Source: Gammaproteobacteria bacterium
GTDB lineage: Bacteria; Pseudomonadota; Gammaproteobacteria; Pseudomonadales; Cellvibrionaceae
Length of the DNA stretch: 64,000 nt
NCBI GenBank assembly: GCA_004172865.1
Contig: SEBV01000007.1
Coordinates: 248,001 to 312,000, forward strand
Direction of reading: 5' to 3'
Shown: piece after piece, positions 14,838 through 60,198 of the stretch
Position numbering within the stretch: the stretch's first letter is position 1
How the letters are laid out: each line of letters begins with the position of its first letter
Translations under genes and position numbers: made by a program
The notes under the pieces: model-generated
The model's database searches: none
What the model saw: the letters and a program-made list of their open reading frames with translations, nothing else
What the model was told of the DNA's origin: nothing

Positions 14838-14856
14838 AGTCTGTGTGGTATCACAC
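14838..14856 (-). promoter_or_regulatory. 19-bp stress motif upstream of the BON gene
   Basis: Minus strand reads GTGTGATACCACACAGACT. It keeps all positions common to the set (G1, T2, G5, C10, A13, C14, G16, numbering from the left), and is itself nearly palindromic (GTGTG...CACAC). Confidence 0.6.
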
Positions 14857-14956
14857 TCAGATTTTTGGATGGATAAAGGTAGGAATAATGATTGCTTTAT
14901 AATTTAATTAAAATTAAAAATGAATTTTTTGATATTTTTTTGAAGGTATAAAAAAT

Positions 14957-15012
14957 AACTCGAAAAATGGAGGCAAATATTTTAGATAATTTGAACTACC
15001 ATTTTTCGAGTT
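14957..15012. repeat. 14-bp perfect inverted repeat between BON and Crp/Fnr genes
   Basis: AACTCGAAAAATGG at 14957-14970 is repeated inverted at 14999-15012, with 28 bases between. No T-run follows on the minus strand in the direction of the Crp gene's end, so this is not a standard terminator, although it is placed 40 bp beyond the Crp stop and could still end that transcript. Confidence 0.6.
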
Positions 15013-15052
15013 TGAAAATTAGAAAACAAAAAATAATAAATTTCATTTAATG

Positions 15053-15775
15053 CTAGGTCACATTTCCGATTAGGCGATCCAATTCCTTTTTAACAACGCC
15101 ATAGCATTCACACGATTTTACTTCGAGTTTTTTTCTATCCAATACTGCGATGTGACCGCGTCGGTAACGAATACAGCCAGAATTTTGTAACGCACCTGCA
15201 GCTTCAGTCACACTTTCTCGGCGCACGCCAAGCATGTTTGCAACCAATTCCTGGGTCATCTTCAATTCGCCACTGGGAATCCGGTCCACTGTTAATAATA
15301 GCCAGCGACATAACTGTTGCTCAACTGAGTGGTGACGATTGCACGCTGCGGTTTGAAACATTTGTGTCATTAGCGCTTGAATATAACGCAGCAACAAACG
15401 ATTCATTAACCCCGAACTATTATTGAATTCTGCTTTTAAAATATGGCGATCCAGTCGATAGGCTTGTCCGGCAGTTTGCACAACAGCGGAACTGGGCGTT
15501 GTGTTTCCTCCGAGAATAAGAGGCACACCGACCATACCTTCATTGCCTACGCCTGCAGCTTCGGCTGAAGCACCGGTTTCAGTAACATAGTGCAATGAAA
15601 TAATGCTTGTTGTCGGAAAATAAGCATATTGCAAAAGTTGGTTAGGTTCATAAAGCATCTCACCAAGTCGCAGCGTTACCAAATCCATCCGTGAAGCTAT
15701 GCGGCTAAGTTCCTGCTCGCTTAGAGCGGCGAGAAGACGGTTTTGTATGAGGCTATTAGTAGTCAGTTGCATCAT
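15053..15775 (-). CDS. Crp/Fnr family transcriptional regulator
   Basis: 240 residues: an N-terminal cyclic-nucleotide-binding-like beta-barrel (about 10-130) without an Fnr-type cysteine cluster, a dimerisation helix and a C-terminal winged helix (KMTQELVANMLGVRRESVTEAA, about 173-194). This subgroup (with HHSVEQQLCRWLL) is often found beside PAS kinases in soil bacteria. The gene overlaps the response regulator stop by one base (TAATG), so it is the last gene of a three-gene signalling operon and its product may carry the output of that kinase pathway. Confidence 0.92.
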   Translation of the reverse strand: MMQLTTNSLIQNRLLAALSEQELSRIASRMDLVTLRLGEMLYEPNQLLQYAYFPTTSIISLHYVTETGASAEAAGVGNEGMVGVPLILGGNTTPSSAVVQTAGQAYRLDRHILKAEFNNSSGLMNRLLLRYIQALMTQMFQTAACNRHHSVEQQLCRWLLLTVDRIPSGELKMTQELVANMLGVRRESVTEAAGALQNSGCIRYRRGHIAVLDRKKLEVKSCECYGVVKKELDRLIGNVT

Positions 15776-16629
15776 TATCCTTTATGCGTAATCGGCATTT
15801 CTTGACACTGAACTCCAATACCGCGGTAGCCAATAAAACGGCTTCCCTGGTCGAACATGGGTTCTCCACTAACGCGGAAGTAATGCGGGCTGCCATCTGC
15901 CGCGGTGCGGCTAAAGGAGAAATCAATGAACGGCTCACGCGCTGCAATAATATCTTGCAGGGCTTTACGTTCGTCTTCATTCCAGCCTTGTGATGCAGCT
16001 AAATCAGCGGTTGATGTTGTGCCATTTTCTACAAATGAATCAACTTGTATGCCGAGCATTTCCAACACTGGCCCGGAAACCTTGGTGAATTTTCCGGTCT
16101 CATCCTGCTCCCAATACCAGTCAGATGCAAGTTCCGTCAGGCTGCGGAAACGCGCTTCACTTTCACGCAATTCAGCCGTGCGTTCCTGTACCGTCTCTTC
16201 AAGAATCTTACTGTAATTTTCCAATTTCTTATAAAGTAAACGTACTTCAAGCATGTTATGGATGCGTGTTTTTACTTCAATAATATCGAAAGGTTTACTA
16301 ATAAAATCTTTTGCGCCAGCTTGCAATGCGCGCAATTTGTGGCCCGGTTGCGCTGTTAATACAATAACCGGAATGTAATGGTCTTGATCGTTTGTCTTAA
16401 GACATTCCATCACTTGAAAACCATCCATTTCTGGCATTTGTAAATCGAGCAAAATTAAATCGTAAACATTTTTGCGATGCAAACCAGGAACTTCTACCGG
16501 GTTAGTCGTTGAACTAACGTTGGTATAACCTTCCTCGCTCAACAACTCCTCCAGCACCATAATATTGGGCTGTTGGTCGTCTACGATTAATATGCGTGCG
16601 TTAAGCACTTCCTCGTCGGTTATCTTCAT
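15775..16629 (-). CDS. response regulator with C-terminal PAS domain, no output domain
   Basis: 284 residues. The receiver (about 10-130) has the acidic pair DD and the phospho-acceptor Asp62 in LILLDLQMPEMDG, the conserved T in VLTAQ and Lys in ISKPFD. A coiled-coil linker (LLYKKLENYSKILEETVQERTAELRESEARF, in pieces, about 135-165) leads to a PAS domain (about 166-275). Nothing follows the PAS domain, so it probably works through protein contacts, for example with the kinase upstream. The start overlaps the kinase stop by four bases (ATGA). Confidence 0.9.
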   Translation of the reverse strand: MKITDEEVLNARILIVDDQQPNIMVLEELLSEEGYTNVSSTTNPVEVPGLHRKNVYDLILLDLQMPEMDGFQVMECLKTNDQDHYIPVIVLTAQPGHKLRALQAGAKDFISKPFDIIEVKTRIHNMLEVRLLYKKLENYSKILEETVQERTAELRESEARFRSLTELASDWYWEQDETGKFTKVSGPVLEMLGIQVDSFVENGTTSTADLAASQGWNEDERKALQDIIAAREPFIDFSFSRTAADGSPHYFRVSGEPMFDQGSRFIGYRGIGVQCQEMPITHKG

Positions 16630-19600
16630 ATTATTTTCTCTTTACTTTTTTTCACGGATTTTTCGTTGTCGAGTTCTAAAGCTAAATCAAGGGTGTCAAT
16701 AAACTCAGGAATTTTAATGGGCTTGGTTAGGTAGCGGAAGAATCCCGCTGACAAACCTTTTTCGATATCGCGAGGTATAGCGTTTGCGCTTAATGCAATC
16801 ACCGGTATGTGTGATGTTAAAGGATCTCTCGCGAGAATTTTTAACGCATCAGTACCATTGATGCCGGGCAAATTAATGTCCATTAAAATTAAATCGGGTA
16901 GTGTGCTGCGTGCTAAATCAATGCCGGAATAACCATCGCGAGCGGACAGCATATCAATATCGGCGCGCGCTTCTAAGATATCGCCAATCAACATTAAATT
17001 CGCAGGATTATCTTCAATGTAAAGTAATCTGAATTTGCGATTTAAATTTTTGGATTGACGCAAAGTAATTTCATTGCGTTCACTTTCGCTAATTCCCGGG
17101 AACAGACCTTGTGCAACGGCTTCCAATTCAATACTGAATATAGTGCCTTTGCCGACGGTGCTTTCCACGTCAATTTTTCCGCCCATTAATTCGATAAGTC
17201 GTTTGGTCATCACCAGACCTATACCTGTACCTTCAACAGCGCTATTTTCTTTTCCTAGGCGATTAAAGGGCTGGAATAATTGTGCCACTTTTTCTGGTGA
17301 CAAGCCTTCGCCAGTGTCTTCAACACATAAGCGTACGCGACCAGGTTCGTGCTCAATAAAGGTGACGATAATTTTTCCATGTTCGCGATTATATTTAACC
17401 GCGTTTGACAGTAAATTGATTAGCACTTGTTTCAAGCGAGTGTGATCCGCTTTAACAACTACTTCAGTTTCTGGTTGATGGAAATCAATTGAAATATTGC
17501 GCTGCGTTGCTTGCGCTTCAATCATAACGTGGCACTCCTGCATTAATGCAGTGAGTGAAACATTTTCCATCGAGAAGGATAATTTCCCCGATTCAATTAA
17601 AGTCAGATCGAGAATCTCATTAATTAAGTCCAGCAAATACCAACCCGCTTGCAAGATTTGATCAATGCTGCGCTTTTGCGATGGCGATGGCGGCGTTTTG
17701 CTAGCCGCAAGTAATTGCGCAAAACCTAAAATCGCGCTCAAAGGTGTGCGCAATTCATGACTCATATTGGATAGGAAATCTGACTTAGCGAGGTTGGCTT
17801 TGTCCGCTAGGTTTTTTGCTTTCTTCAATTCAATATTGTTTTCAAGTAAGACTTTATCGAGGCGTTTGCGCTCGGTAACGTCAATCAACATATTGATACC
17901 GCCGGTAAGTTTTCCGTCGGCGTCATGCAATGGAGTAGGGTGCGCGGTAAACCAAACGCGAGTTCCATCGGGCCGTTCAGCAATGGCTTCTGCACCTAAA
18001 ATCTGGCGATCTTCTTTTAAGGCAATGGCCATTGGCGATTGATCGTGAGCTAAAGGTGAACCGTCGGGGCGCCACAATTTCATTCCGACAGACCAATGAT
18101 CCGTTCCCAGCTCTGGGGTTTGGCCTGAGAAATCTACTGCAGCTTGATTGAAGTGGGTGAGGGTGCCTTTGGCGTCCGTGGTGTAAATGGCAACGGGCAA
18201 GGCATCAATTACTGACCGCAAATGCCGCTCATTTTCGCGCAAGGTATTTTCAATGCTCTTACGTTCGGTGATATCCAGATTGGTACCTACAATCGATTCA
18301 ACCTGACCTAACGAATTTGACCGCGTGGTTTCAACCGACCGAATGTAGCGTAAGCCCGTGTCATTTTGGGGTGTAATTCGGTATTCACGAATGCTTTGTG
18401 CACCGGTGCGAATCGCTTTTTGCTGGGCTTCTTGTTGCGTTGCTAAATCTTCCGGCAGTAAATAACTTAACCATTGTTTGTAATGAATATAGCCATCTGG
18501 TGTAGGTTCTACGCCGTAAATACGGAACATCTGCGCATCCCAGTGCACGGTATTGTTGAGCAAATTCCACTCCCAAATACCTACGCCGGTAGCTTCAGTC
18601 GCAAGACGAACACGTTGGTCGCTTTGGCGAAGTGCTTCTTCTGCGAGTTGACGCTCTGTAATATCGGTAAACAGCACAATGATTTTTTTGCTGTCTGCAG
18701 TATTGTCGGGGCAGGCATAAACATCGAAGAAGCGGTCGAGTGCTTTTACTTCCTGTAAGAAGCGAATGGGCTGACCTGTTTCAATAACTTCCGCGTAGCC
18801 GTCTATAGCGGCCTGCTCATAGTCGGGTAGAATTTCTTTAACGGTTTTCCCTGTTACATCTTTGAGTCCGGTTTGTTTTTCGTAGGAAGGGTTTACTTCT
18901 ACAAAACGGAAATCGACAGCTTTGTCATTCTCATAAATCATTTCGAGAATGCAGAAGCCTTCATCGATGGTGTTGAATAGGTTGCGGTAGCGGTATTCCG
19001 ATTCCAGCGCCGTAGCTTCGGCGAGTTTACGCGCGGTGATATTGCGCAAAACGCCGGTGAAATAGCGCTGCCCACCCAAACGCATTTCACTTACTGCAAT
19101 TTCCATAGGGAAACTGTAACCGTCTTTGTGCAAACCACCGACTTCACGAATCAGCCCGCTCGCGCGAACATCCGCTGGAACGCTGTTGTAATAATCGAGT
19201 GAGCCTTTGTCTTCAGAAAGCTCTGGAACAATCGAACTGAAACGCTTGCCAACGAGCTCGGCAGCGCTATAGCCAAACATTTTTTCGGCGGCGGTATTAA
19301 CAGTTTCAATTAAATTAGTGCGCACATCGAAAGTGACAATAGCATCGGCAACTGTAGATAAAATTGTTTGCACGAGAGCCGTACTATCAAGCAATGCTTG
19401 TTGCGCTAGGTTTTCGGCGGTTACGTCACGGAACACCAGTACCGCACCAATTACCTGGCCATCGTGATCGCGCATAGGCGCACAACTATCAGCAATAGTG
19501 CATTGGTTGCCGTTGCGAACGACTAATAATGAGTCGTGCGAACCTTGCACGGTGCCGGTAAGTGCAGCGTCCATTACTAAGGTGGTAATAGGTTCGCGAG

Positions 19601-20504
19601 TTTCTTTATTGAGCATGTGGAACACATCAGCAATCGGGCGCCCCATAGCTTCATCTTGAGACCAGCCAGTAATCTGCTCAGCTACATGGTTCATTAAAGT
19701 CACGCGCGATTGCGGATCGGTCGCTATTACGGCGTCGGCAATGGAGTTTAGCGTCACTTCGAGCTTCTTTTCGCTATCCTGTACGGTCACATAAGCGAGA
19801 TTTAACTGGTGGTTCATCGCCTCCTGAGTATCCAGCGAGCGCTTGGTTTCCTGATGCACCAAGTCCATCAAACGCTGATGGATGTTGCGATAAATTCCGT
19901 ACGCAAAAACTTGTGCGAACAACAACATGAACAAACTTGCACCCACCAAAAAGATGAACAAAAAGTTCATGTTGGTGCGGTATTGATTGTCGTAATAATG
20001 CAGCTGATCAGTTTGGAGCTGTACATAGCTTTGAACGCGCTCACGCACGTTATCCATTATCCGGCGGCCTTCGCCGCTGCGGATTTGTGGCATAAGGTCT
20101 TCGATGCTGCCTTTTCGACGTATCTCCAAGGCTTCATCAATCAGCTTCATTCGGGTTGCAATTAATTCGTTTATTGCAATTGCCTGTTGCTTGGTTGCGG
20201 CTGTAGAGGAGATATCTTGTAATTCTTTAGACTTGATGGGGACAATTTTGACTGCCTCGTTATACGGGCCCAGCGAAACGTCTTCACCAGTCAGTACAAA
20301 ACCACGCGCACTGGTCTCGGCATCCACCACGGCCATCAAGAGTTCTTGCGAGATATTAATCGTGTGCAAGGTTTGTTCACGCATATTGTTGGCGGTTTTC
20401 ATGCGATCAAAAAACCAAAACAAAGTCGCGACTATAACCACGACCACTACTGTAGGCATGGAAAGTAAGAAGATGTTTTTCCGGGTTGCGGATCTTTTAA
20501 TCAT
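16626..20504 (-). CDS. CHASE3-PAS hybrid sensor histidine kinase
   Basis: About 1292 residues from the ATG at 20504. Two membrane helices (near residues 12-30 and about 180-205) enclose a periplasmic CHASE3 domain (ISQELLMAVVDAETSARGF). Then a coiled coil and about five PAS/PAC units, HisKA (His916, MSHELRTPLSAILGF), HATPase (NLLSNAVKYN, EDTGEGL, GTGIGLVMTKRL) and a receiver (Asp1209, LILMDINLPGING). The frame is open to a GTG at 20552, but the added residues do not look like a signal anchor, while MIKRSATRKNIFLL does. The response regulator-PAS and Crp/Fnr genes overlap downstream, so this is the sensor of that operon. Ligand unknown. Confidence 0.93.
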   Translation of the reverse strand: MIKRSATRKNIFLLSMPTVVVVVIVATLFWFFDRMKTANNMREQTLHTINISQELLMAVVDAETSARGFVLTGEDVSLGPYNEAVKIVPIKSKELQDISSTAATKQQAIAINELIATRMKLIDEALEIRRKGSIEDLMPQIRSGEGRRIMDNVRERVQSYVQLQTDQLHYYDNQYRTNMNFLFIFLVGASLFMLLFAQVFAYGIYRNIHQRLMDLVHQETKRSLDTQEAMNHQLNLAYVTVQDSEKKLEVTLNSIADAVIATDPQSRVTLMNHVAEQITGWSQDEAMGRPIADVFHMLNKETREPITTLVMDAALTGTVQGSHDSLLVVRNGNQCTIADSCAPMRDHDGQVIGAVLVFRDVTAENLAQQALLDSTALVQTILSTVADAIVTFDVRTNLIETVNTAAEKMFGYSAAELVGKRFSSIVPELSEDKGSLDYYNSVPADVRASGLIREVGGLHKDGYSFPMEIAVSEMRLGGQRYFTGVLRNITARKLAEATALESEYRYRNLFNTIDEGFCILEMIYENDKAVDFRFVEVNPSYEKQTGLKDVTGKTVKEILPDYEQAAIDGYAEVIETGQPIRFLQEVKALDRFFDVYACPDNTADSKKIIVLFTDITERQLAEEALRQSDQRVRLATEATGVGIWEWNLLNNTVHWDAQMFRIYGVEPTPDGYIHYKQWLSYLLPEDLATQQEAQQKAIRTGAQSIREYRITPQNDTGLRYIRSVETTRSNSLGQVESIVGTNLDITERKSIENTLRENERHLRSVIDALPVAIYTTDAKGTLTHFNQAAVDFSGQTPELGTDHWSVGMKLWRPDGSPLAHDQSPMAIALKEDRQILGAEAIAERPDGTRVWFTAHPTPLHDADGKLTGGINMLIDVTERKRLDKVLLENNIELKKAKNLADKANLAKSDFLSNMSHELRTPLSAILGFAQLLAASKTPPSPSQKRSIDQILQAGWYLLDLINEILDLTLIESGKLSFSMENVSLTALMQECHVMIEAQATQRNISIDFHQPETEVVVKADHTRLKQVLINLLSNAVKYNREHGKIIVTFIEHEPGRVRLCVEDTGEGLSPEKVAQLFQPFNRLGKENSAVEGTGIGLVMTKRLIELMGGKIDVESTVGKGTIFSIELEAVAQGLFPGISESERNEITLRQSKNLNRKFRLLYIEDNPANLMLIGDILEARADIDMLSARDGYSGIDLARSTLPDLILMDINLPGINGTDALKILARDPLTSHIPVIALSANAIPRDIEKGLSAGFFRYLTKPIKIPEFIDTLDLALELDNEKSVKKSKEKII

Positions 20505-21350
20505 GAATTTACCATCAAATAACGTACGACACTTCGCGACGGCTGGCATCACTGCTTACGCGAATACATCTTGTAACGACTTGGGGCGGCACCTTGGCGA
20601 AGTTTGAAAACGCTCAACTTTTAGCCCGAAACTAGTCTTAGAGGCTACTAATTAATCAGCCAACGCTATAAGTTTTATAAGGTGCCACTAATTTTTAAGC
20701 TGAGAAACCCCATCAAACCCATGATTACAGGCACAGGGGGTTGCCGTCTGTCTGTTACCGCTCATAAGAAAGGGACGACTTATTGTTAACTGAGGCGACT
20801 ATCACATAATCCTTAAGTCTTGTCTCCAGTATTTTTTACGTGCCGAACGAAGATTTTGGATTTGTGAAGCAGGCGCCAGAGGATGGGATCATTGTCAGGC
20901 AAAAAATTTAATTACACTCTGCCGCGGGAGGTAATTTGTGGGTAGGGGGCTATAAGATTTTAAGCCCTTGATAGTGTGATCAAAATGCTAATTTTCATTT
21001 TAAGAATAATCCGAGCGATGACTTTTAAATTGAATTTCAAGCCACATTATTTTTATGCTTTAAATAATGTTAGTAATGATGGTTTCACTATTTACTAATA
21101 ATTTTTTCGATCCATTTTTTTTCGACCAGTTTCTGTTCTTTGCCCTCCAGATGTCTAATTCAATTTCTGTGTGCGCTCGCGCACCGATTCACGATACCTA
21201 TTTGAATGATTATGAGTCTAATAGATTGGATTATTACTGCGCGTCGATTGAGTTTAAAAATTTCAGCGCCAAATTTCTAATTCAATAAAGTTTTTTCTGC
21301 AAAATATATTTCATCATTTTTCAATTTATCTACAAGTTAGGGAGAAACTT
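20505..21350. other. long intergenic region
   Basis: About 850 bp between the divergent kinase gene and the DUF3309 gene. It must hold the kinase promoter. I see no RNA gene or riboswitch I can name. An open frame at 21067-21288 (73 codons) lacks a ribosome-binding site and overlaps the stress motif at 21171-21189, so I do not call it. Confidence 0.5.
21171..21189 (+). promoter_or_regulatory. 19-bp stress motif upstream of the DUF3309 gene
   Basis: GTGCGCTCGCGCACCGATT on the plus strand, 161 bases before the DUF3309 start. It has the strongest dyad of the set (GTGCG...CGCAC). Confidence 0.65.
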
Positions 21351-21509
21351 ATGAGTACAAGAAATCTTCTAGTCATTATTTTAATTTTGTTGCTGATCAG
21401 CGCAATTCCAACATGGCCTTACAGTGCCTCATGGGGCTACGGTCCGAGTGGTGGTGTAGGTGTGGTTCTTCTTGTTGTCATATTGGTGTTGATATTTAGA
21501 CGACCTTAA
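21351..21509 (+). CDS. DUF3309 small membrane protein, 52 aa
   Basis: The product starts MSTRNLLVIILILLLISAIP, continues with WPYSASWGYGPSGGVG and ends with a second hydrophobic segment (VVLLVVILVLIFRRP). The W.YS..WGYGPSGG centre between two membrane helices is diagnostic of DUF3309. Function is unknown; members are small inner-membrane proteins usually found among stress genes. A strong Shine-Dalgarno sequence, AGGGAGA, is correctly placed. A copy of the 19-bp stress motif lies upstream, and the cyclic glucan synthase gene begins 150 bp downstream. Confidence 0.88.
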   Translation: MSTRNLLVIILILLLISAIPTWPYSASWGYGPSGGVGVVLLVVILVLIFRRP

Positions 21510-38236: not shown

Positions 38237-38255
38237 AATCAGTTCGTTAGCGCAC
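38237..38255 (-). promoter_or_regulatory. 19-bp stress motif upstream of the membrane protein-hemerythrin operon
   Basis: Minus strand reads GTGCGCTAACGAACTGATT, 82 bases before the start at 38154. Confidence 0.65.
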
Positions 38256-38392: not shown

Positions 38393-38797
38393 TTAATTTG
38401 GCGCTTTGGTTCCGTAATATGCATGAATGTCATTAGTCAATGACGGGTCGGCCAAATTTGGCCATGCATCTTTATCGAAACCTGGTGCGTTTTTCAAACG
38501 GTCTTTACTAACGTTCAAAATAAAACGCTTGTTTTCAGTATCTAATTTTAAAGCGCTCCAGGGCACCGCGAAAAGTTTTTCGCCGAGGCCCAAAAAGGAA
38601 CCGAAAGATAATACAGCATAAGAAATTTCGCCGGTGGCTACATCAAGCATAATTTCTTTAATGTCGCCAATATTTTCTTCATCGAGGTTGTAAACATCAT
38701 CGCCAATTAATGTATCAGCGCCCATTAATTGTGGGCCTGGGCCGTTGTGGAAATTGGTTTTATAGATGCCATAAGTATCGCGAGTTTCGTAGCTCAT
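38393..38797 (-). CDS. PRC-barrel domain protein
   Basis: 134 residues. The PRC-barrel beta fold is seen in TLIGDDVYNLDEENIGDIKEI, then YAVLSFGSFLGLGEKLFAVPW and the TENKRFILNVSKDRLKNAPGF segment. Such stand-alone PRC-barrel proteins are common among stress-induced genes; the domain usually binds partners rather than catalysing. The inner Met at 38797 is taken as start because GGAGAT lies at the right distance; the frame is open eight codons more. Monocistronic, with a terminator, and a copy of the 19-bp stress motif at 38907-38925. Confidence 0.9.
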   Translation of the reverse strand: MSYETRDTYGIYKTNFHNGPGPQLMGADTLIGDDVYNLDEENIGDIKEIMLDVATGEISYAVLSFGSFLGLGEKLFAVPWSALKLDTENKRFILNVSKDRLKNAPGFDKDAWPNLADPSLTNDIHAYYGTKAPN

Positions 38798-38906
38798 TTT
38801 GAATCTCCAGTCTGTTAGCAATCGTGTTTGTAAGTTAACTATTTAGAAGCACTGGCGCTATGCCTTTTGCACTTTCACGATGAAATTTACGCGCAATTGA
38901 ATATGG

Positions 38907-38925
38907 CCTCTGTACGACAACTCAC
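38907..38925 (-). promoter_or_regulatory. 19-bp stress motif upstream of the PRC-barrel gene
   Basis: Minus strand reads GTGAGTTGTCGTACAGAGG, 109 bases before the start. The more divergent members of the set are this one and 60180-60198, which resemble each other (GTGAG....CGTACAGA). Confidence 0.5.
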
Positions 38926-39598
38926 ACACTTTTGAATAAAAATCAATTTTTATTTTGTGTTAAATGTTAAAAAATATTTATCGATGTGGCGCGCAAATTT
39001 ATTTAACAGATTCACCTAAAACATGACTTTTTTATCGCATAACTAGAACTGTTTATCAAAATTTATATTTATATTTTTGTGTGCTCGATTTTTACGACTA
39101 GGCTTCAACCAAGCTGAAATTTTATTCAGCAGATTCACGCATAACTAATTGAAGTTTTAAACTCGCTAATTTAATTAAATGCGGAAGAGTAGAATTGAAG
39201 TTGAATTAAGGTTATCGCCCAGTGATTCATGCCCTAAAAATTAAGCTTTGGTTAAAAAACGACAGAAAGGCTAATAATTTATAGGGCAAAGTTGGCATGA
39301 TTTTTCGCTTTTTTAATCTATGTACGACAACGCACTGATTCAAAGCTGGTTAACAATTAGTCTTTATGCGTTTAAGCGACTTTATATCGAGCGCTTATTG
39401 TAGTGTTGGGACTTGGGTATTTCACAGTTTAACAGTCGCTAACGTTATACCTAGCGATCTAAGAAGCAGCGTTGGAATTCTGCGCTGTGTAAGTTTCAAA
39501 CGGATATGGATTAACCTCGCATGCATCCTTTTAAAGCATGCTCGGCCAGTAATTCATAATGAGATAAAAGTTTTGCTGTATAAAACTTGGGAAATTGA
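38926..39598. other. AT-rich intergenic region
   Basis: About 670 bp between the divergent PRC-barrel and GGDEF-EAL genes, without a supported gene. It holds the stress motif at 39322-39340. A plus-strand frame from 39366 overlaps the GGDEF-EAL gene in another frame and is not credible. Confidence 0.5.
39322..39340 (+). promoter_or_regulatory. 19-bp stress motif upstream of the GGDEF-EAL gene
   Basis: GTACGACAACGCACTGATT on the plus strand, 258 bases before the start at 39599. Confidence 0.6.
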
Positions 39599-41764
39599 AT
39601 GCAAAGTCGTAACCAAACTCATGTATTGCTTATCGAAAGCGATCCTCTCGAAGCGAAGCGAGTTCAAGATGTACTTGCCGAGGTTGAGTCTAATCCTTAT
39701 TGCCTTGAGTCGGTCACTACTGTTGCAGAAGCTCGAAGTCGTCTGCGCCAACCAATGGGCGATTATTTGATTGATATCGTTATTATCAATCAGGCTTCGA
39801 CAGTATCCACAGCTAGTGACACCGATCTCTTACCCTTCGAACAAATTGCCTTTCTCGCACCCCACGCGTTAATCTTGGTGTTGGATGATGATGACCAACG
39901 CGGTCATCTTGCTCTCGAAAAAGGTGCTCACGAATATTTAGCGAAATCACATATTGATTCTTATTGGCTGCCCCGCGTGTTGCGTTACATGATGCAACAG
40001 CGTCAACAGGAACTTGTGGTTTTGGCAGCGGAAAAAGCGCTTTACGATGAAAAAGTGCGTTCGCAAATTGCCTTGAATTCAATTGGCGATGCAATCCTCA
40101 CGACTGATTTATTCGGTGATTTAATTTATATGAATCACGCCGCCGAAATTCTAATTGGCTGCTCTCGTGAGAACGCCTTGGGTCGTCCGCTTACAGAAGT
40201 GTTTAAAATTATTAATCGGAATACTCGACTTCCTGCACCTAATCCTGCGCTTCACGTGATTGAAAATAACAGCAGTCAAGGTTTGGATTCAGATGTGAAA
40301 TTATTGCGGGGAGATGGCTCCGAGCTTTCTATCGAGAAGTCGGCAACGCCAATTCATGATCGCGATGGCAGTGTTACGGGTGCGATTATTGTATTTCACG
40401 ATGTGAGTGAATCGCGCACCATGGCGATGAAAATGACGCATCTCGCGCAACACGATTTTCTCACCGGTTTACCCAATCGTATGTTGCTCACCGAGCGACT
40501 ATCGCAAGCTATTGGTATGGCTTATCGCAACCTTACACAAGTTGCGTTGTTATTTATTGATGTCGATTTTTTCAAGCATATTAACGACTCGCTCGGACAC
40601 GCAGTTGGGGATGAATTATTAAAATCCATTGCTGCTCGTTTAGTAAGTTGTGTGCGCGCAACTGATACCGTTTGTCGTCAAGGCGGTGATGAGTTCGTTA
40701 TTTTGTTAACCGAAATTGAGCGACCGCAGGATGCAGCAATCACTGTAGAGAAATTATTCAGTGCTTTCTCGGAACCCCATCATATAGGTGTGCATGAATT
40801 GCATATCTCGCTCAGTGTCGGCATCAGCATTTATCCTGGTGATGGAAAAGATGCAGAAATCCTGATGCAAAATGCTGATGCTGCTATGTATCACGCGAAA
40901 ATGCTCGGTCGTAATAACTTCCAATTTTTCAAAATGGAAATGAACACCAAAGCAGTACATCGCGCTTTTATTGAATCGAGTTTGCGTCGCGCTATTAAAC
41001 GCAATGAATTTGTACTTCACTATCAGCCGAAGGTGGATATAGCTTCGGGTGTAATTATCGGTGCTGAAGCTTTAATTCGTTGGGATGATCCGCAACAAGG
41101 CGGCCTGGTTCAACCTGAGGAGTTTTTAGCTATCGCAGAAGAATGCGGCCTTATAGTGGCGATAGGAAACTGGGTGCTGCGTGAAGTTTGCGGTCAGTTG
41201 CGTGCCTGGTTGAAAGCGGGTTTGCGAATTCTTCCTGTATCCATAAATATTTCGGCAGCGGAATTAAAACATAAATATTTTTTAAACAGTATTAATGATG
41301 CGTTACAAGAAACTGGATTGCCACCTTATTATTTGGAGCTGGAGTTTACTGAAACAATTCTTATGCGCGATGCTGAATTGTCAGTCACTATTCTTGAATC
41401 TTTAAAGGCGATTGGTGTGCAATTAGCTATTGATGATTTTGGGACGGGCTATTCAAGTTTAAGTTATCTACAACGGTTTCCAGTTGATACTTTGAAAATT
41501 GATAAATCTTTTATGCGTGATTTGGAATTGAATGCAGACAACTCAACTATTGTGAGTGCAATCATTGCAATGGGCAGAAATCTTAGGCAGCGGGTGTTGG
41601 CTGAAGGTGTGGAAACATCTGAGCAGCTAGCATTTTTGCGCGCTCATAGATGTAGTGAGGCACAAGGTTTTTATTTAAGCCCGCCGTTAACGGCAGATGA
41701 GTTCTCAAAATCGATGTCCAGTAATGTACTTCCGGTGTTGAGTGTACGGCAACGAACTGATTAG
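39599..41764 (+). CDS. receiver-like-PAS-GGDEF-EAL cyclic-di-GMP protein
   Basis: 721 residues. An N-terminal receiver-like domain (about 7-125) is followed by PAS (about 155-275), GGDEF (about 285-445) with intact GGDEF at 362-366, and EAL (about 460-705) with E490-A-L492, DDFGTGYSSLSYL and KIDKSFM. Both catalytic motifs look intact, so it may make, degrade or switch between the two activities on cyclic di-GMP. In the receiver the residue at the phosphorylation position is Asn (IDIVIINQAS instead of a DLxxxD-type motif), so it is probably not phosphorylated, though LAKSH keeps the conserved Lys. Start is weakly supported (GGGAAATTGA). It is monocistronic, under a copy of the stress motif. 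Confidence 0.93.
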   Translation: MQSRNQTHVLLIESDPLEAKRVQDVLAEVESNPYCLESVTTVAEARSRLRQPMGDYLIDIVIINQASTVSTASDTDLLPFEQIAFLAPHALILVLDDDDQRGHLALEKGAHEYLAKSHIDSYWLPRVLRYMMQQRQQELVVLAAEKALYDEKVRSQIALNSIGDAILTTDLFGDLIYMNHAAEILIGCSRENALGRPLTEVFKIINRNTRLPAPNPALHVIENNSSQGLDSDVKLLRGDGSELSIEKSATPIHDRDGSVTGAIIVFHDVSESRTMAMKMTHLAQHDFLTGLPNRMLLTERLSQAIGMAYRNLTQVALLFIDVDFFKHINDSLGHAVGDELLKSIAARLVSCVRATDTVCRQGGDEFVILLTEIERPQDAAITVEKLFSAFSEPHHIGVHELHISLSVGISIYPGDGKDAEILMQNADAAMYHAKMLGRNNFQFFKMEMNTKAVHRAFIESSLRRAIKRNEFVLHYQPKVDIASGVIIGAEALIRWDDPQQGGLVQPEEFLAIAEECGLIVAIGNWVLREVCGQLRAWLKAGLRILPVSINISAAELKHKYFLNSINDALQETGLPPYYLELEFTETILMRDAELSVTILESLKAIGVQLAIDDFGTGYSSLSYLQRFPVDTLKIDKSFMRDLELNADNSTIVSAIIAMGRNLRQRVLAEGVETSEQLAFLRAHRCSEAQGFYLSPPLTADEFSKSMSSNVLPVLSVRQRTD

Positions 41765-41848
41765 ATTAAGCCAGAAGTTTATTCTTGCTCCAAGTTGCAC
41801 ACCGCAGCTTTCCCTCACGAATAAATTTTATTAACAGGAGATTTAAAA

Positions 41849-42163
41849 ATGAAAAAAATTACTTCATATTTTTCATTAGTGTTTATGGCTATGGCGCTTT
41901 TCTCAATGGTTGCTTGCTCAGCTACTCATAAGCGTGAAAGTACCGGTGAATATGTTGATGACACCGTTATTACTACACGAGTTAAAGCTGCAATCGTGAA
42001 AGAAGACACTTTGAAAGTGAGTGAAATCAACGTAGAAACTTTTAAAGGCGTTGTTCAACTCAGCGGCTTTGTATCTTCACAAGCTGACGTTAACACTGCA
42101 GTGCGCGTAGCAGGTGGTGTAGGTGGTGTGAAATCAGTTAAAAATGATATACGACTGAAGTAG
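41849..42163 (+). CDS. single BON domain lipoprotein
   Basis: 104 residues. The signal peptide ends in a lipobox (FSMVAC), so Cys23 is probably lipidated. One BON domain follows (about 36-104, DTVITTRVKAAIVKEDTLKV to KSVKNDIRLK). It is a likely periplasmic outer-membrane or inner-membrane anchored relative of the OsmY-like protein at 13971. AGGAGAT lies just before the ATG. The gene has its own strong terminator; no stress motif is seen in the 84 bp upstream, so it may be co-transcribed with the GGDEF-EAL gene. Confidence 0.92.
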   Translation: MKKITSYFSLVFMAMALFSMVACSATHKRESTGEYVDDTVITTRVKAAIVKEDTLKVSEINVETFKGVVQLSGFVSSQADVNTAVRVAGGVGGVKSVKNDIRLK

Positions 42164-42986: not shown

Positions 42987-43005
42987 GATCTGTTCGTCAG
43001 CACAC
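42987..43005 (-). promoter_or_regulatory. 19-bp stress motif upstream of the DUF883 gene
   Basis: Minus strand reads GTGTGCTGACGAACAGATC, 109 bases before the start at 42877. Confidence 0.6.
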
Positions 43006-43169
43006 CTAAAATTACTTTCGCAAAATGCTTGAGTTATTCCAACTTTTAAGCTAGTTACCGCACCGATGTAGAAGCGCAATAATTTTATTGTGTAATCGTA
43101 AATGCCGAATTTGGTTTGATGTTTTTAAATTTTAAATCTACACATTAAATAAATGTCAGAGGTCTAGCA

Positions 43170-49086: not shown

Positions 49087-49722
49087 CTAAACCGGCGCGT
49101 TTTCAGTCGCCTTGGATTTTTTAGTTTTCGTAGCCTTTTTAGTGTCGGTGCTGTCTGTTTCAGATTTTGTTTTAGGAATTGATTTTTCTGCTTTTGCTTC
49201 TTTAGATTTTGGTTCCTTAGGCTTTGCATCAACAGATTTTGGATCAGCCTTTTTGCGCAGATCCGTTTTCAGTTTTACATCCGTATTAAGCTCGCCTTGG
49301 CCCGCCGATTTTTTTCTCGCCGCCGCTTTTTCATTTGCCACAACGCGATTAATCACCTCGCCAACATCGGTGGCTTTTGCGCGCGATTTTTTGGGTTTAT
49401 CGGTTGCATCGATTGATCCAGCCACCAGCTCGGCGGTGGGTGAGCCCGGTTGAATAGGCTGGCTTGGTTGCACCGGATCTGTGGGTTGGATTGGGTCGGT
49501 AGGAGTTACAGGTTGCGCTGGTTGAGTGGGGGAAATTGGCTCAATAGGCTCAGTTGAACCGCTTTGTTGGCCATCATTAGCGGCTTTCACGTCGGTATCA
49601 GCGTGAGTTTGCGCCAGCTTGCAGGCCATATTCCAATGACGCTCTGTCTGCCCGTGGGGCTTTCCTTCTGACTCCCAGATTTGATAGGCGAATTCACGGA
49701 TGCGTTGTTCATTAGTGCTCAT
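49087..49722 (-). CDS. DUF2934 protein with proline-repeat and lysine-rich tail
   Basis: 211 residues. Residues 1-40 are a DUF2934 domain (RIREFAYQIWESEGKPHGQTERHW). Next come a proline-rich repeat of the type xPxxPxQP (about 60-95: PTQPAQPVTPTDPIQP...) and a histone-like tail rich in Lys, Ala, Ser and Thr (about 105-211). The tail is longer than in ordinary DUF2934 proteins as I recall them. It has no signal peptide. The start at 49722 has GGAGAT; it overlaps the treY stop by 11 bases, so translation is coupled. A DUF2934 gene lies between treY and glgX in Pseudomonas too. Function unknown; the basic tail suggests binding to DNA, RNA or polyglucose-bound proteins. Confidence 0.85.
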   Translation of the reverse strand: MSTNEQRIREFAYQIWESEGKPHGQTERHWNMACKLAQTHADTDVKAANDGQQSGSTEPIEPISPTQPAQPVTPTDPIQPTDPVQPSQPIQPGSPTAELVAGSIDATDKPKKSRAKATDVGEVINRVVANEKAAARKKSAGQGELNTDVKLKTDLRKKADPKSVDAKPKEPKSKEAKAEKSIPKTKSETDSTDTKKATKTKKSKATENAPV

Positions 49723-52700
49723 GGTGTTGATCTCCATTTGATATGAATTGTGTAGATGTTGCCGATGGAAAAGTAAGTTCAAAAATTAAAAAGTTAACGG
49801 GGAAGTTAGTGAGCAAATCGCGTACGAAAAACGAGTCCCGCACGCTGCGTTCGCTGATAGGGGCAAGGCTATCGACCAAAATATGAGAGCTAGGGCTTAA
49901 ACGTGAGGGCAATAAGATACGCGTATCGCCCCAAGCGTCTGGCGCTACAAAGGGAATTGCACGTTCGCCCAGCAGGCCCGCACTCAGGCGGGGCACGACT
50001 ACGACCAAGTAGTTGTCGCGGTATTGACGTGTAAACGCCACAACCTGATCTGCCGCAACGCCCTCAACCTCAAGGGCGTTATAATCCCCATGGTTAAAGA
50101 GCTGTGCATATTGCGCACGCACGTGCAGCGTCTCTGCGATTAGCCATTGCTTGATCCGTCCATCTTGCCAATGTTCCACCAAGTCTGCTCCCGTGGTCGT
50201 GTTGGAAAGGCGATCATCGGAAAGTGTTGCAACGCGAGTGCCAAAATCCACTGGCTGGCGGTTGTCTGGGTCTACCAAGCTGAAGTCCCAATATTCGTTA
50301 CCTTGGTAAAGATCTGGCACGCCGGGAGCGGTCATACGCAGCAGCGTTTGTCCCAAACTGTTCAGGGCACCAGCGGGCGCAATTGAGCCTGCGGCTTGCG
50401 CGATGTCTCTACGCAGAACCTGCGTGTCATCTGCCGTCAGCAAGCGAGTTAGGAAATCGCGGCTTGCGCTTTCATAGGCAGTGTTAGGCGCACTCCAGCT
50501 GCTGCGCAACTTGGCTTCGCGCATTGCTTTTTCCTGCCAACGTAAAATGCGTTCCAAATAAGCATTGAGAGCATGCGCTTTTTCAGAATCGTCGCCAGCT
50601 TTCGGCATAAGTTCTAACGGCCAGCTTGCCAGCAAAATTTGGTAGAGCATCATTTCATCGCCGGGCGAAGGCACAATGCCGTCTTCCAGTGTTGCTCGCA
50701 GTGGCGCTGCCAGTGTTTGCCAATATTCAATTTTTGCGGCGTACCATACCGAACGTTCACTCACTACCGCGAGGCGTGCGCGCGTATCTTCGCCGCGCTT
50801 ATGATCGTGAGTTGCGGTAGTTAACATATTCCCGGGAAAGGTTTGCGAGCGCTCAACATTTAGTTGATGAAATTGTGCGAGCGGTGCGCTGAAATTTTGT
50901 GGATCAAAACCAACATCGTTGCGCGATAATAAAACCGCAGAGCGATAACACGCGGTATCCTCAACTGCTTTTGCAGCTGCGGGCGATGTTAATTGTTGGA
51001 AGCGCGCAAGAATTTTCTTACGCAAATTCCGATGCGGTCCCGGTGGTAATTCGTGTAATGCTTTGCCGCCCAGCCAGCGATCCAAATATTCCAAAATTGG
51101 CCAATCAATTTCCGCTAGTGCGAGTCGAGCGCCAGCAATAGCTTGATCAAAAAATGCTTGATCTTGCGCGGTGCGGCCGCATGCATTTGCGTAAGTACGG
51201 TATACGGGAAAATGCACGACTAATTCAGTTAGGCCACGGCGAATAGCGCCAAGTGGTAAGTCGCGCGTAGCAATATCGGTGCGGGCGATTAGTAATAAAC
51301 CCTGCGCCACCATTTCAACATCACCTGCCAAGCTGCTCGCTAATACTAGGCGGCGCGCTTCAATAGTTTCATCTTTAAATGTGCCTTGTCTGCCGCTGAT
51401 TCGCGTCCACACATCAAATAAATGCATAGCACCGCAAGGGTCATGTTGCAGCAGCGAAACCTGGTTCATAAATTCATAACCGGTAGTGCCATCCACTGTC
51501 CAGCTTGCGCTAAGTTTTTCGCCGTCGGCAAGAATTTTTTCTACATAAATAGGCAAATGATTTTGCGCAAATTCAGCAGGGCGTTCCAAAGTTAGGTGAT
51601 CCAGCCGGCGGCGCAATTTACGGCAATAAGCGCGTGGATTAGCGAGGCCATCCACATGATCAATACGCAAACCGTCAATCCAGCCACGCGCAATTAATTC
51701 AAAAATTTTACCGTGACTCGCTTCAAAAACTTCTGCACGCTCAACACGTAAACCAGCTAATTCATTCACATCAAAAAAGCGACGCCAATTGATATCGTCG
51801 GCCGCAGTGCGCCAGCTAGCGAGACGATAATGTTGCAGCTCCAGAAGTTCGTGTAAGCGCTGTAAATTTTCATTGTGCTGCCAATCGGGATGCATATCGC
51901 CCGCGTGCTCATCACGTGTATGCGCTTCACTTGCGTCAACGGTTTCCAGTGCAGGCAGTCGTTTTTTTGCAGTATTTTCTTGCACTGGTGTATCGCTAAC
52001 TTGGTAGGCTAGCAAAGCTTTTTCAATGCTAGCGGCGACCGCAGGATTTTGTGCAAGTGTACTTAATTGTTTATGAAGTACTTCGGCATCGTGCCAACGT
52101 TCTTCGTCATCTTCCTCGGTTTCCAATCCTTCAAATAAACGGATGAATGGACGCAGTGATGAGTTGTCGGCGTTGCGTAAAATATGGCCGTAGCTGGGAG
52201 GATAAATAGGGAAGCGGTGATCATAATGCTCCGCATAAAACTCACCGGCTTTTGCATCAAACTTTAAACTGATTTCGCCTGCGGCTAATACATCGCCATA
52301 GTTGCCACCTAAAAATGGCAACAATAATTGGCCTTTTAATAAAGGGTCGGGCGAATTCCATTGAATATCAAAGTAGCGTGCGTAGGGACTTTTTAATCCC
52401 CACTGCAACACTTCTTGCCACCAGGGATTATCGTCTTTGCCAACCGCCATATGATTGCAAACAATATCCACAATCAAACCCATTTTATGCGCGCGCAATT
52501 CCGTGACTAAACGTTCAAGCGCAGCTTCACCGCCTAATTCAGGATTGATAACGGAAGGATCAACAACGTCGTAACCGTGCATGGAACCGGCCCGAGCTTT
52601 TAGTAAAGGCGATGCATAAATATGGCTAATACCAAGACGTTTAAAATAGCTTACGAGTGGTACAGCGTCATCAAGCGTAAAGTCTCGATGGAATTGCAAA

Positions 52701-52726
52701 CGCACTGTGGCATTTACTGCAGTCAT
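49712..52726 (-). CDS. treY: maltooligosyltrehalose synthase TreY
   Basis: 1004 residues, GH13. The N-terminus VRLQFHRDFTLDDAVPLVSYFKRLGISHIYASPLLKARAGSMHGYDVVD (in parts) is characteristic of TreY. Catalytic segments DGLRIDHVDGLANP and IYVEKIL and the far C-terminal DLYQGNEYWDFSLVDPDNRQPVDF are present. It rearranges the reducing end of maltodextrins to an alpha,alpha-1,1 trehalose unit, which TreZ then releases. The 218-bp gap to treZ carries the stress motif at 52805-52823, so treY probably opens its own operon (treY-DUF2934-glgX-ybhP-clsB-ybhN). Confidence 0.95.
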   Translation of the reverse strand: MTAVNATVRLQFHRDFTLDDAVPLVSYFKRLGISHIYASPLLKARAGSMHGYDVVDPSVINPELGGEAALERLVTELRAHKMGLIVDIVCNHMAVGKDDNPWWQEVLQWGLKSPYARYFDIQWNSPDPLLKGQLLLPFLGGNYGDVLAAGEISLKFDAKAGEFYAEHYDHRFPIYPPSYGHILRNADNSSLRPFIRLFEGLETEEDDEERWHDAEVLHKQLSTLAQNPAVAASIEKALLAYQVSDTPVQENTAKKRLPALETVDASEAHTRDEHAGDMHPDWQHNENLQRLHELLELQHYRLASWRTAADDINWRRFFDVNELAGLRVERAEVFEASHGKIFELIARGWIDGLRIDHVDGLANPRAYCRKLRRRLDHLTLERPAEFAQNHLPIYVEKILADGEKLSASWTVDGTTGYEFMNQVSLLQHDPCGAMHLFDVWTRISGRQGTFKDETIEARRLVLASSLAGDVEMVAQGLLLIARTDIATRDLPLGAIRRGLTELVVHFPVYRTYANACGRTAQDQAFFDQAIAGARLALAEIDWPILEYLDRWLGGKALHELPPGPHRNLRKKILARFQQLTSPAAAKAVEDTACYRSAVLLSRNDVGFDPQNFSAPLAQFHQLNVERSQTFPGNMLTTATHDHKRGEDTRARLAVVSERSVWYAAKIEYWQTLAAPLRATLEDGIVPSPGDEMMLYQILLASWPLELMPKAGDDSEKAHALNAYLERILRWQEKAMREAKLRSSWSAPNTAYESASRDFLTRLLTADDTQVLRRDIAQAAGSIAPAGALNSLGQTLLRMTAPGVPDLYQGNEYWDFSLVDPDNRQPVDFGTRVATLSDDRLSNTTTGADLVEHWQDGRIKQWLIAETLHVRAQYAQLFNHGDYNALEVEGVAADQVVAFTRQYRDNYLVVVVPRLSAGLLGERAIPFVAPDAWGDTRILLPSRLSPSSHILVDSLAPISERSVRDSFFVRDLLTNFPVNFLIFELTFPSATSTQFISNGDQHHEH

Positions 52727-52804: not shown

Positions 52805-52823
52805 CGTCTGTGGGTTAGCGAAC
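52805..52823 (-). promoter_or_regulatory. 19-bp stress motif upstream of the treY operon
   Basis: Minus strand reads GTTCGCTAACCCACAGACG, 78 bases before the treY start. Confidence 0.62.
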
Positions 52824-56501: not shown

Positions 56502-57611
56502 TTAAACCGGAGGTTGATGTTCTGGTGTATGTATTTGGTCTGCGCTTGAAGGCGCTTTAGGCGCTTCCTCGTGCAAGTTTGCACGCAATTGCGGCAGTGA
56601 TTCTGGGTAATGCAAGCTAATAAAATTAATTAACTTTTCACGCACAAAACAGCGCAAATCCCAGTTGCTAGAAGAATCTTTGCTGCTCACCAAAATACGC
56701 AATTGCATTGCTTTGTCAGTAGCATCGGTGACTTGTAAAACGGATACTTTTCCATCCCACAAATTAGGTGATTGCTTACATAACTCGTCCAACTCTTTGC
56801 GTAGCGGTTCTAATGGCATTGAATAATCCACCCATAAAAATAACGAACCGATTAGATCAGATGTTTTACGTGTCCAATTTTGAAATGGATGTTCAATAAA
56901 ATATTGCAGCGGCACCACTAAGCGACGGTCATCCCAAATCCGAATCACGACATAGGTGCCGGTTATTTCTTCCACACGACCCCATTCGTTTTCTACGATC
57001 ACAACATCATCCAAACGAATAGGTTGGGTAATGGCAAGTTGTAAGCCGGCAATTAAATTTCCTAAGACAGGTTTTGCAGCAAAACCAACGGCTAACCCTG
57101 CCAAACCCGCAGAGGCAAGTAAGCTGGTGCCAAATTGGCGTGCATTAGGAAATGTCATTAGCATTGCTGCTAAACCAAATAAAATTATAAAAAAACCGAG
57201 AGTCTGGACCAACACTTTAGTTTGCGTTTGAATTCTGCGGGCAGATAAATTGTCGGTAATATTCATTGGGTTGCGCTGCAAAATAATATCTTGCCCAACC
57301 GCGATAATTCTTAAACCTAACCACGTTAAGGCACCAATAATAAACAGCGAATTTATGTGTCGTGCCAAATCAATAAAATGAAAATCGTCATCCGCTGAGC
57401 CTAAATAGGCGCGTAAGCCGAGTAGGGGAATAAGTAGATTAATAGGGGGTTTTATACGCTCCAATAAATCGCGAGCAAATGAGAACGGGCTGGCAATGCG
57501 AGTTAATAATTTCGTAAGAAGCGGCGCAATTACGGCGAGCACTAGAACCAGAACGGCGGCACCTAATAATAATTTTAATTCGGGGAGGTACTGCTCCCAA
57601 TTAATTGTCAT
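56502..57611 (-). CDS. mechanosensitive channel, MscS family
   Basis: 369 residues. Three to four N-terminal membrane helices (about 12-38, 75-100, 130-150) lead to the pore-lining helix (ASAGLAGLAVGFAAKPVLGNLIAGLQLA, in pieces, about 165-190) and the MscS beta domain (RLDDVVIVENEWGRVEEI), with a Pro/Glu-rich end. It releases solutes on hypo-osmotic shock. AGGAG lies 7 bases upstream of the second of two close ATG codons (57611); the open frame goes on to 57710. The stress motif at 57772-57790 is 160 bases upstream. Confidence 0.92.
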   Translation of the reverse strand: MTINWEQYLPELKLLLGAAVLVLVLAVIAPLLTKLLTRIASPFSFARDLLERIKPPINLLIPLLGLRAYLGSADDDFHFIDLARHINSLFIIGALTWLGLRIIAVGQDIILQRNPMNITDNLSARRIQTQTKVLVQTLGFFIILFGLAAMLMTFPNARQFGTSLLASAGLAGLAVGFAAKPVLGNLIAGLQLAITQPIRLDDVVIVENEWGRVEEITGTYVVIRIWDDRRLVVPLQYFIEHPFQNWTRKTSDLIGSLFLWVDYSMPLEPLRKELDELCKQSPNLWDGKVSVLQVTDATDKAMQLRILVSSKDSSSNWDLRCFVREKLINFISLHYPESLPQLRANLHEEAPKAPSSADQIHTPEHQPPV

Positions 57612-57771
57612 TGTCATACTCCTACAATCTGTACTACACAATTTATTGGTGATTCGCGAACTAATGCAAAACGCTAAAATGATATTTATCGCGACACTTT
57701 TTAGTAACAAATGTTATCAATGTGTTAAAAGCTATCGCGATAGCGCATTTATATCACCGTGAGAAATAGAG

Positions 57772-57790
57772 GCTCTGTATGCGAGCGCAC
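57772..57790 (-). promoter_or_regulatory. 19-bp stress motif upstream of the mscS-like gene
   Basis: Minus strand reads GTGCGCTCGCATACAGAGC, 160 bases before the start at 57611. The plus strand of the same spot also contains a CGAGCGCACACAGAC half-match. Confidence 0.55.
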
Positions 57791-58828: not shown

Positions 58829-59344
58829 TTATTTCTTTTTATAAGTTTTTGCTAATTCTTGTGCCAAGTGCAAATGATGCTCAAGTTTTGGCAACGTCGC
58901 TACCGCGAAGCTAGCTAACTCAGGATCGGGAGATACTGATGCTTTCTTGAAAAGTGCAATCGCATCTTCATGCGCTTTTACTTGGTTATTTGCGTAGGCT
59001 TCGTCGAAAGATTCGCCATCGCGTTGTTTCAGTACAGCTGCTTTAGCTTTATTCATCAATTCCGCTTCGGTAGAAACTTTCAGTTTCTTCTTAGCTGCAA
59101 TGCTAGCCAATTCTCTGTTAGCGGCGGTGTGATCATTAATGACTGCTTGAGCGAAAGTTTTTACATCGCCAGCAGTTGATTTTTGCAAAGCCAGTTTGGC
59201 GGTCTCAATTTCTGCTATACCAGCGGCAGAAGCATCTTCTACGAAATCATCTGCATCCACAGTGTCTGCTGCCATTGCAGTGCCGCACACAGCGCTGAAT
59301 GCGAAAAGGAATGCACCGGTCATTAACAATTTAGTTGTCTTCAT
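58829..59344 (-). CDS. periplasmic DUF4142 protein
   Basis: 171 residues: signal peptide (LLMTGAFLFAFSAVCGTAMA, cleavage after AMA), then the helical DUF4142 domain with FVEDASAAGIAEIETAKLAL, then KTFAQAVINDHTAANREL and HEDAIALFKKAS. The family is a ferritin-like four-helix bundle without clear metal ligands, exported, and induced by stress. Start preceded by AGAGGTAATCAAT. A copy of the stress motif is 108 bases upstream; a perfect hairpin follows the stop. Confidence 0.9.
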   Translation of the reverse strand: MKTTKLLMTGAFLFAFSAVCGTAMAADTVDADDFVEDASAAGIAEIETAKLALQKSTAGDVKTFAQAVINDHTAANRELASIAAKKKLKVSTEAELMNKAKAAVLKQRDGESFDEAYANNQVKAHEDAIALFKKASVSPDPELASFAVATLPKLEHHLHLAQELAKTYKKK

Positions 59345-59452: not shown

Positions 59453-59471
59453 ATACGGTGCGTTAGCGAAC
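59453..59471 (-). promoter_or_regulatory. 19-bp stress motif upstream of the DUF4142 gene
   Basis: Minus strand reads GTTCGCTAACGCACCGTAT, 108 bases before the start. Because of its dyad it also fits on the plus strand (GTGCGTTAGCGAACTCA) facing the KGG gene. Confidence 0.65.
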
Positions 59472-59755
59472 TCAAAATATAAGATCATGTTTCGCTTTAG
59501 TGGATTGCCTATTAACAGATTTAATTTTAAAAATTTAATCTATGCGATTTTTCTTAAAAATATTAATGATGGTATTTCATTTAAATTGTTTTAATAATTT
59601 ATAAAATTATTTGGTAATTGCAAATTGCTCTAAAGATCTATTGAAATTAAAAAAATTAGGTGCTTAGATAAAAATGAGTGTGAAAACACTTGCTGTTAGT
59701 TAGAAGTTTTTTACTTTTAATTAGTGGGAACATTAATGTAATCACCGCGAGGAAA
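59472..59755. other. AT-rich promoter region between DUF4142 and KGG genes
   Basis: About 280 bp with no gene. It should contain the KGG gene promoter. Nothing else is recognisable. Confidence 0.5.
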
Positions 59756-59761
59756 ATGAAT

Positions 59762-59911: not shown

Positions 59912-59921
59912 CTCAGGAGCG

Positions 59922-59948
59922 GTGGATGGAAGCACTGCTTCCATCCAC
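59922..59948 (+). terminator. hairpin after the KGG gene
   Basis: GTGGATGGAAGCA and its perfect inverse TGCTTCCATCCAC around one base, 10 bp after the stop. No T-run follows, so termination is probable rather than certain. Confidence 0.6.
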
Positions 59949-60011
59949 TACTACTTAAAGCAATTTAAATAACCCATGTAAGTTTAATTAGAAATAATAA
60001 TTGGTGAGAAA

Positions 60012-60143
60012 ATGAAAAATCTTGAAAAATTAATTTTAAGGCAAGTCGTATTTGCGTTGATTCCATTGCCAGACATGGTTTGTCGTTCCGGTCAATTCAT
60101 CGCTAGCATGCCTGTTCCAATTTCTATGGCGGCAATGAAATAA
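60012..60143 (+). CDS. possible small protein, 43 aa
   Basis: MKNLEKLILRQVVFALIPLP continues to a stop at 60141 with a mixed tail including CRSGQFIASMPVPI. No family known. GGTGAG just before the ATG could serve as ribosome-binding site. Coding status is uncertain. Confidence 0.3.
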   Translation: MKNLEKLILRQVVFALIPLPDMVCRSGQFIASMPVPISMAAMK

Positions 60144-60179
60144 TGCTCGTCAAGCCTGCCCATTTTTCTTCACTGGCCT

Positions 60180-60198
60180 GTGAGGCAGCGTACAGAAA
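60180..60198 (+). promoter_or_regulatory. 19-bp stress motif before the small gene upstream of ku
   Basis: GTGAGGCAGCGTACAGAAA on the plus strand ends at the base before the ATG at 60199. If it is a promoter element, translation must start further in, for example at the ATG at 60241. Confidence 0.45.

Follow-up and report, generated by a model that had tools for sequence, protein, structure and literature searches.

Which protein reads the 19-bp motif that recurs in this part of the genome, and which genes does it serve? A first-pass annotation had aligned ten copies by eye and read them as a single stress regulon under a dimeric regulator. All ten 19-mers were found letter for letter in the window (the whole 64-kb stretch of DNA that was analysed), three on the forward strand and seven on the reverse. 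With leave-one-out matrices, the omitted site ranked 3 to 24 among all 64-kb positions on both strands, the nine training sites counted; the weakest were 38907 and 60180 (rank 24 each). An eleventh site, absent from that annotation, was detected at 41744 (+) upstream of a BON gene; it overlaps the 3' end of the GGDEF-EAL coding sequence (its last codons), a position that may account for the oversight. Apart from the reverse reading of 21171, the window has no further match scoring at least 14.6 and therefore none before recA or the pectinases, as had been noted.

Motif sites and predicted promoters

The sites, the genes behind them and the hexamers that read as -10 boxes are:

14838-14856, reverse strand: before the triple-BON gene (13971-14783); -10 TATTAT at 14815-14820
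21171-21189, forward strand: before a 52-aa gene (21351-21509; DUF3309 in the first-pass annotation); -10 GATTAT at 21208-21213, spacing one base longer
38237-38255, reverse strand: before a gene without a Pfam match (37168-38154) and a hemerythrin gene (36537-37019); -10 TATTCT
38907-38925, reverse strand: before a PRC-barrel gene (38393-38821); -10 TAAATT
39322-39340, forward strand: before a PAS-GGDEF-EAL gene (39599-41764); -10 TAGTCT at 39358-39363
41744-41762, forward strand: before a BON gene (41849-42163); -10 TATTCT at 41780-41785
42987-43005, reverse strand: before a DUF883 gene (probable ATG at 42877); -10 TATTTT
52805-52823, reverse strand: before an alpha-amylase-family gene (49712-52726; treY in the first-pass annotation); no clear -10
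57772-57790, reverse strand: before a mechanosensitive-channel gene (56502-57710); no -10 having both A and T
59453-59471, reverse strand: before a DUF4142 gene (58829-59344); -10 CAACCT
60180-60198, forward strand, weak: before a small ORF (60199-60441) and ku (60524-61510); -10 AATCAT, spacing one base longer

The statement that all sites are intergenic was too strong, since four are not plainly so: besides 41744, site 60180 abuts an ATG and its predicted transcription start would fall inside that ORF, 21171 sits within a 73-aa ORF (taken as spurious), and 42987 overlaps the first codons of the mechanically called DUF883 ORF. That all precede stress-type genes also goes somewhat too far, given 41744 and 60180 and several targets without known function. 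Use of the 60180 site could mean that the small ORF before ku begins further in, at an ATG at 60241. A weak additional candidate, GCTAGTTACCGCACCGA at 43050 (+), has TATTGT at the right spacing and precedes a 74-aa ORF. A search of the window with Rfam gathering thresholds gave no match.

The genome scan that had been proposed as a check depends on the pattern: across all 5.25 Mb of the genome, the loose pattern scarcely exceeds chance (91 matches vs 83 in the reversed control), and the stricter pattern GTDHGNYRNCGHACWGA gives 19 matches vs 0. Stretches elsewhere in the genome were chosen around pattern matches. Twenty extra sites were hand-picked from 37 listed matches scoring at least 12.5, leaving out mainly intragenic matches and second strands of one palindrome, and together with the 11 window sites they form a set of 31, all selected before the -10 element was seen. 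The positions G1, T2, G5, C10, A13, C14 and G16, described as constant, are so in the ten original sites; among the 31, T2 and G5 each vary once.

When the 31 sites were aligned with 75 downstream bases, a second block appeared, with A38 in 25 and T42 in 26, which reads as a sigma70-type -10 box (TANNNT). In the window, A38 and T42 are both present at the standard spacing in 7 of the 11 sites; 21171 and 60180 are one base longer, and 52805 and 57772 lack the pair. The consensus is TNTGTGCG-N4-CGCACAGA-N19-TANNNT, and its dyad is CRP-like (TGTGC-N6-GCACA). Assuming a transcription start 7 bases past the last T of the -10, the dyad centre would lie at -41.5, the geometry of a class II activator; starts predicted in this way include 14808, 38207 and 39370. 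Such a start puts G16-A17 at -33 and -32, within the -35 hexamer, and this overlap of an asymmetric GA with the -35 would explain why the dyad is more strongly conserved in its right half than in its left.

The same arrangement was found in other genomes, whose sites were located with the 31-site matrix. We used 26 named loci with Crp relatives (425.6 kb), of Cellvibrio type plus 17 assigned by record title to the Betaproteobacteria (Methylotenera, Polaromonas, Methylobacillus, Gallionella and others). The own-genome matrix gave 59 separate matches scoring at least 17, against a permuted mean of 1.35 and a maximum of 7 in any of 60 permutations. Among 67 matches scoring at least 16, the A and T of the -10 stand at offset 37 in 50 and at offset 38 in 11, the remaining offsets tried (25 to 59) giving 0 to 7; the -10 thus has a fixed spacing, from which the operator centre was derived as for a class II promoter. 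Four loci (L119, L133, L137 and L142) have no match of at least 16. A composite matrix with rigid -10 spacing was built from 43 non-Cellvibrio sites, which were also required to carry the -10 and whose consensus is TNTGTGCG-CTAG-CGCACAGA, 19 bases, TANNNT. Its top eight window matches, all those of at least 14, are known sites, and over 200 permutations of the matrix the mean number of matches was 0.065 and the maximum 1. Site 21171 scores 10.6 with this matrix, and 57772 and 60180 score below 10. Among the crp loci L058-L087, a set of 30 short ones from the search for relatives, 14 lack a site of at least 15 within about 1.5 kb.

A proposed Crp-type regulator and its apparent operon

The window contains an apparent operon of three genes next to site 14838, which falls between crp and the triple-BON gene:

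16626-20552, reverse strand: hybrid histidine kinase (CHASE3-PASx-HisKA-HATPase-REC), first gene
15775-16629, reverse strand: REC-PAS protein (Response_reg 8.6e-27, weak PAS), no recognised DNA-binding domain, second gene
15053-15775, reverse strand: Crp/Fnr-family regulator of 240 aa (HTH_Crp_2 7.5e-15, cNMP_binding 7e-7, both over cut-off), third and last gene
20745-20763, reverse strand: weak candidate site before the operon (score 8.4; -10 TAATCA), possible autoregulation

In two relatives, a site likewise lies between crp and a further ORF, of 276 or 271 aa (L117, site 10919, and L118, site 11012). In 18 of the 26 loci crp is immediately preceded by a REC-PAS homolog, and L127 and L134 have one at another place in the locus. 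Four loci (L136, L137, L139, L140) have neither partner and two (L138, L123) a kinase match only; these counts are lower bounds because some loci end near the gene. Kinase homologs adjoin crp in relatives. Stronger sites than that at 20745 stand before the kinase gene in L117, L118, L120, L121, L122, L124, L127, L129, L130 and L132. The conserved gene order would fit two-component control, in which the kinase would phosphorylate its partner.

The 240-aa protein is the genome's best HTH_Crp_2 match. It has a cNMP-binding-like domain and a C-terminal HTH_Crp, which place it in the Crp/Fnr family, and its predicted model (pLDDT 88.5) has the CRP/FNR fold, with CRP, GlxR and FNR as best structural matches (TM about 0.7). 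No NCBIfam model matches it at E 0.01. The recognition-helix sequence VRRE is identical, and C145, C156, C222 and C224 as well as R147 and H149 are invariant, in 21 aligned Crps, an alignment that omits L132, L133, L135, L137, L140 and L142; the L140 protein has VRRS instead of VRRE, yet a strong site. An Arg of the phosphate-binding cassette marks CRP proper, the cAMP receptor. In the alignment with the PRTS of GlxR this Arg is replaced by Thr, and cAMP is therefore unlikely as the ligand. FNR has an N-terminal cysteine cluster for Fe-S, and here the first cysteine is C145. With its invariant cysteines, the protein may instead sense redox state or a metal. In some Crp paralogs (L128 16135-16776, L138 13708-14400, L137 2768-3415, L086 896-1591) VRRV or VRRS replaces VRRE, perhaps with other DNA specificity.

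The presence of the motif follows that of the protein. Within the genus, 11 genomes with a Crp of at least 67% identity have 5 to 19 strict matches (reversed control 0 to 3), and the other 10 have 0 to 3 (control 0 to 3; one-sided P 7e-5, own genome excluded). Those 10 comprise six without a Crp match, with 1 to 3 strict matches, and four with a Crp of 55-61% identity (G009, G011, G012, G013), with only 0 to 2; near the Crp gene, one or two matrix sites were found in G009, G012 and G013 and none in G011. Outside the genus, G040 (Crp 63%) has 7 matches vs 5 in the control. In a class sample of 274 genomes, 22 of the 30 with a Crp homolog carry the extended motif vs 12 of the 244 without (Fisher P 1.4e-17; 8e-17 with the own genome excluded), the exceptions being the 8 Crp genomes that lack it and the 12 genomes without a Crp match, which have one copy. 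The sites also lie near the gene: among 60 in other Crp genomes, 46 share a contig with a Crp gene, 31 are at most 10 kb and 19 at most 2 kb from one, and in six near-complete genomes 13 of 23 are within 10 kb of a Crp gene vs 0.43 expected. One genome without a Crp match (G024) has seven pattern matches; none of them carries a -10, and they look like chance.

The beyond-chance motif, the fixed -10 and the co-occurrence with the Crp gene support the first proposal of one stress-type regulon under a dimeric regulator, which had included neither the gene at 15053-15775 nor the -10. On this sequence evidence, the motif very probably serves as operator for an activator of the Crp/Fnr family, the likeliest candidate being the 240-aa protein. 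From the dyad and the co-occurrence we infer that a Crp dimer binds a 14-16 bp dyad, TNTGTGCG-N4-CGCACANA, centred about 41.5 bp before the transcription start. The dyad would adjoin a degenerate -35 in which GA is kept, followed by the TANNNT -10, an arrangement consistent with class II activation. Direct binding, activation rather than repression, and the exact transcription start are all predictions from these sequences. The bound Crp would turn on protective genes, among them envelope, osmotic and redox functions. Its operon partners, the kinase and the REC-PAS protein, may relay a stress signal to Crp, and sites before the operon, seen in relatives and weakly in the own genome, would close a positive loop.

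Alternative explanations and known systems

It is unlikely that several Crp paralogs share the sites, which would make an overlapping network instead of one regulon. Some relatives have up to nine Crp matches, fragments included, and VRRV or VRRS paralogs occur in some of the same loci; against this, the own genome has a single match to the window Crp at E 1e-10, though five HTH_Crp_2 proteins are over cut-off. We regard as improbable that a different, unlinked regulator binds the motif and that crp is one of its targets. Several Crp genes do have a site close upstream, as a target would, and Crp binding is itself a prediction; but the dyad has CRP-type spacing and half-site (a comparison from general knowledge), Crp is alone among the trio in having a recognised DNA-binding domain, and motif presence in distant genomes tracks Crp.

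The first-pass annotation had offered a dimeric regulator or an alternative sigma/activator element; the sigma-factor element is the less likely, because the -10 is an ordinary TANNNT and the dyad centre would be at -41.5, as for a class II activator. That the 17-bp block is the extended -35 of an alternative sigma factor promoter is very doubtful: the fixed -10 spacing and the asymmetric GA on the -35 would suit it, but the block is a dyad of 16 to 20 bp, longer and more symmetric than a -35 would be, the -10 is of the plain TANNNT type, and the motif differs from the EcfG promoter type (GGAAC-N16-GTT). Chance or an artefact of alignment by eye is hardly credible, since only the loose genome-wide pattern comes close to chance level, and the leave-one-out ranks, the strict pattern (19 vs 0), the held-out loci and the non-Cellvibrio matrix speak against it. 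Both of these explanations were set aside on the loose and strict genome scans, the held-out matches and the composite matrix.

A Crp-type activator is thus the preferred reading, and it resembles several known systems in part. E. coli CRP recognises the dyad TGTG-N8-CACA (TGTGA-N6-TCACA), with class II centres at -41.5 and a sigma70 -10. The dyad, centre, -10 and fold are alike here, whereas the half-sites are TGTGC-N6-GCACA, a Thr is aligned to the cassette Arg of GlxR, the operon also encodes a histidine kinase and a receiver protein, and the targets are mostly protective genes. The site of NtcA is GTA-N8-TAC. NtcA and DNR are among the solved sequences matching the window Crp, and NtcA and DNR/FNR share with it the Crp/Fnr family and a 14-bp core with outer GT...AC; the present system differs in having no N-terminal cysteine cluster, an inner CG...CG and other targets. 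PhyR-NepR-EcfG, the general stress response of Alphaproteobacteria, similarly ties a kinase and a receiver to BON, PRC, hemerythrin and DUF-type stress genes, its output being an ECF sigma factor instead of a Crp-type DNA-binding protein. The RpoS regulon of Enterobacteria is similar in gene content (OsmY-like BON, trehalose-type enzymes, catalase in relatives, mechanosensitive channel), but the promoters here are operator-dependent.

Literature searches, which included passages of PMC8510549, found no account of the motif or regulator; subscription journals were thinly covered, which makes this weak evidence of absence. A Crp-type class II regulon is of a known kind; for its combination with a kinase and a receiver protein to control stress genes, no description came up in the literature searched. 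More tentatively, the module might be a general stress response without a dedicated sigma factor, in which a hybrid kinase and a receiver without a DNA-binding domain gate a non-cAMP Crp-type activator, self-amplifying and common to Beta- and Gammaproteobacteria, with the regulon gained or lost together with the module within one genus; we hold this as a possibility on the doubtful side. The first-pass annotation is extended here by the -10 element, a likely regulator with its operon, and the occurrence of the system in further bacterial groups. An unnamed Crp-type regulator of several proteobacterial groups thereby gains a proposed DNA site, a promoter plan and a testable regulon, and genes of poorly known function (BON, PRC-barrel, DUF883, DUF4142, DUF4398) are joined under one proposed switch.

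Genes of the proposed regulon

The genes found behind the 20 extra sites of the own genome include those for Peptidase_Mx, holin_3_6, DUF4398, PRC, LemA, Pmp3, hemerythrin, OmpA, DJ-1/PfpI, PAS-type kinases, a PNPOx-like protein and alpha/beta hydrolases; two of these sites (L040, L046) have no ORF close behind them. Sixty held-out sites carry a -10 at either spacing; 26 without an ORF of at least 60 aa within 350 bp were dropped and 34 were scanned. The genes behind these include, as raw counts, six for kinases (several from the crp operon itself), BON (2), PRC (2), Crp (2), and single ones for OmpA and a catalase; MlaE, RcnB and an outer-membrane efflux protein are among the others.

The regulon seems to turn over quickly, because LemA orthologs in other genomes have the site in none of four cases and OmpA copies in 8 of 12. 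The OmpA homolog (E 1e-60) occurs in 7 of 21 genus genomes, all within the high-identity Crp group. In each of the eight copies with a site, the A and T of a -10 follow it at a spacing of 17 or 18; the other four have no site. The two OmpA homologs of the own genome (L164, G000:C34:35984-37093, and L038, 8445-9563) both have a site and a -10.
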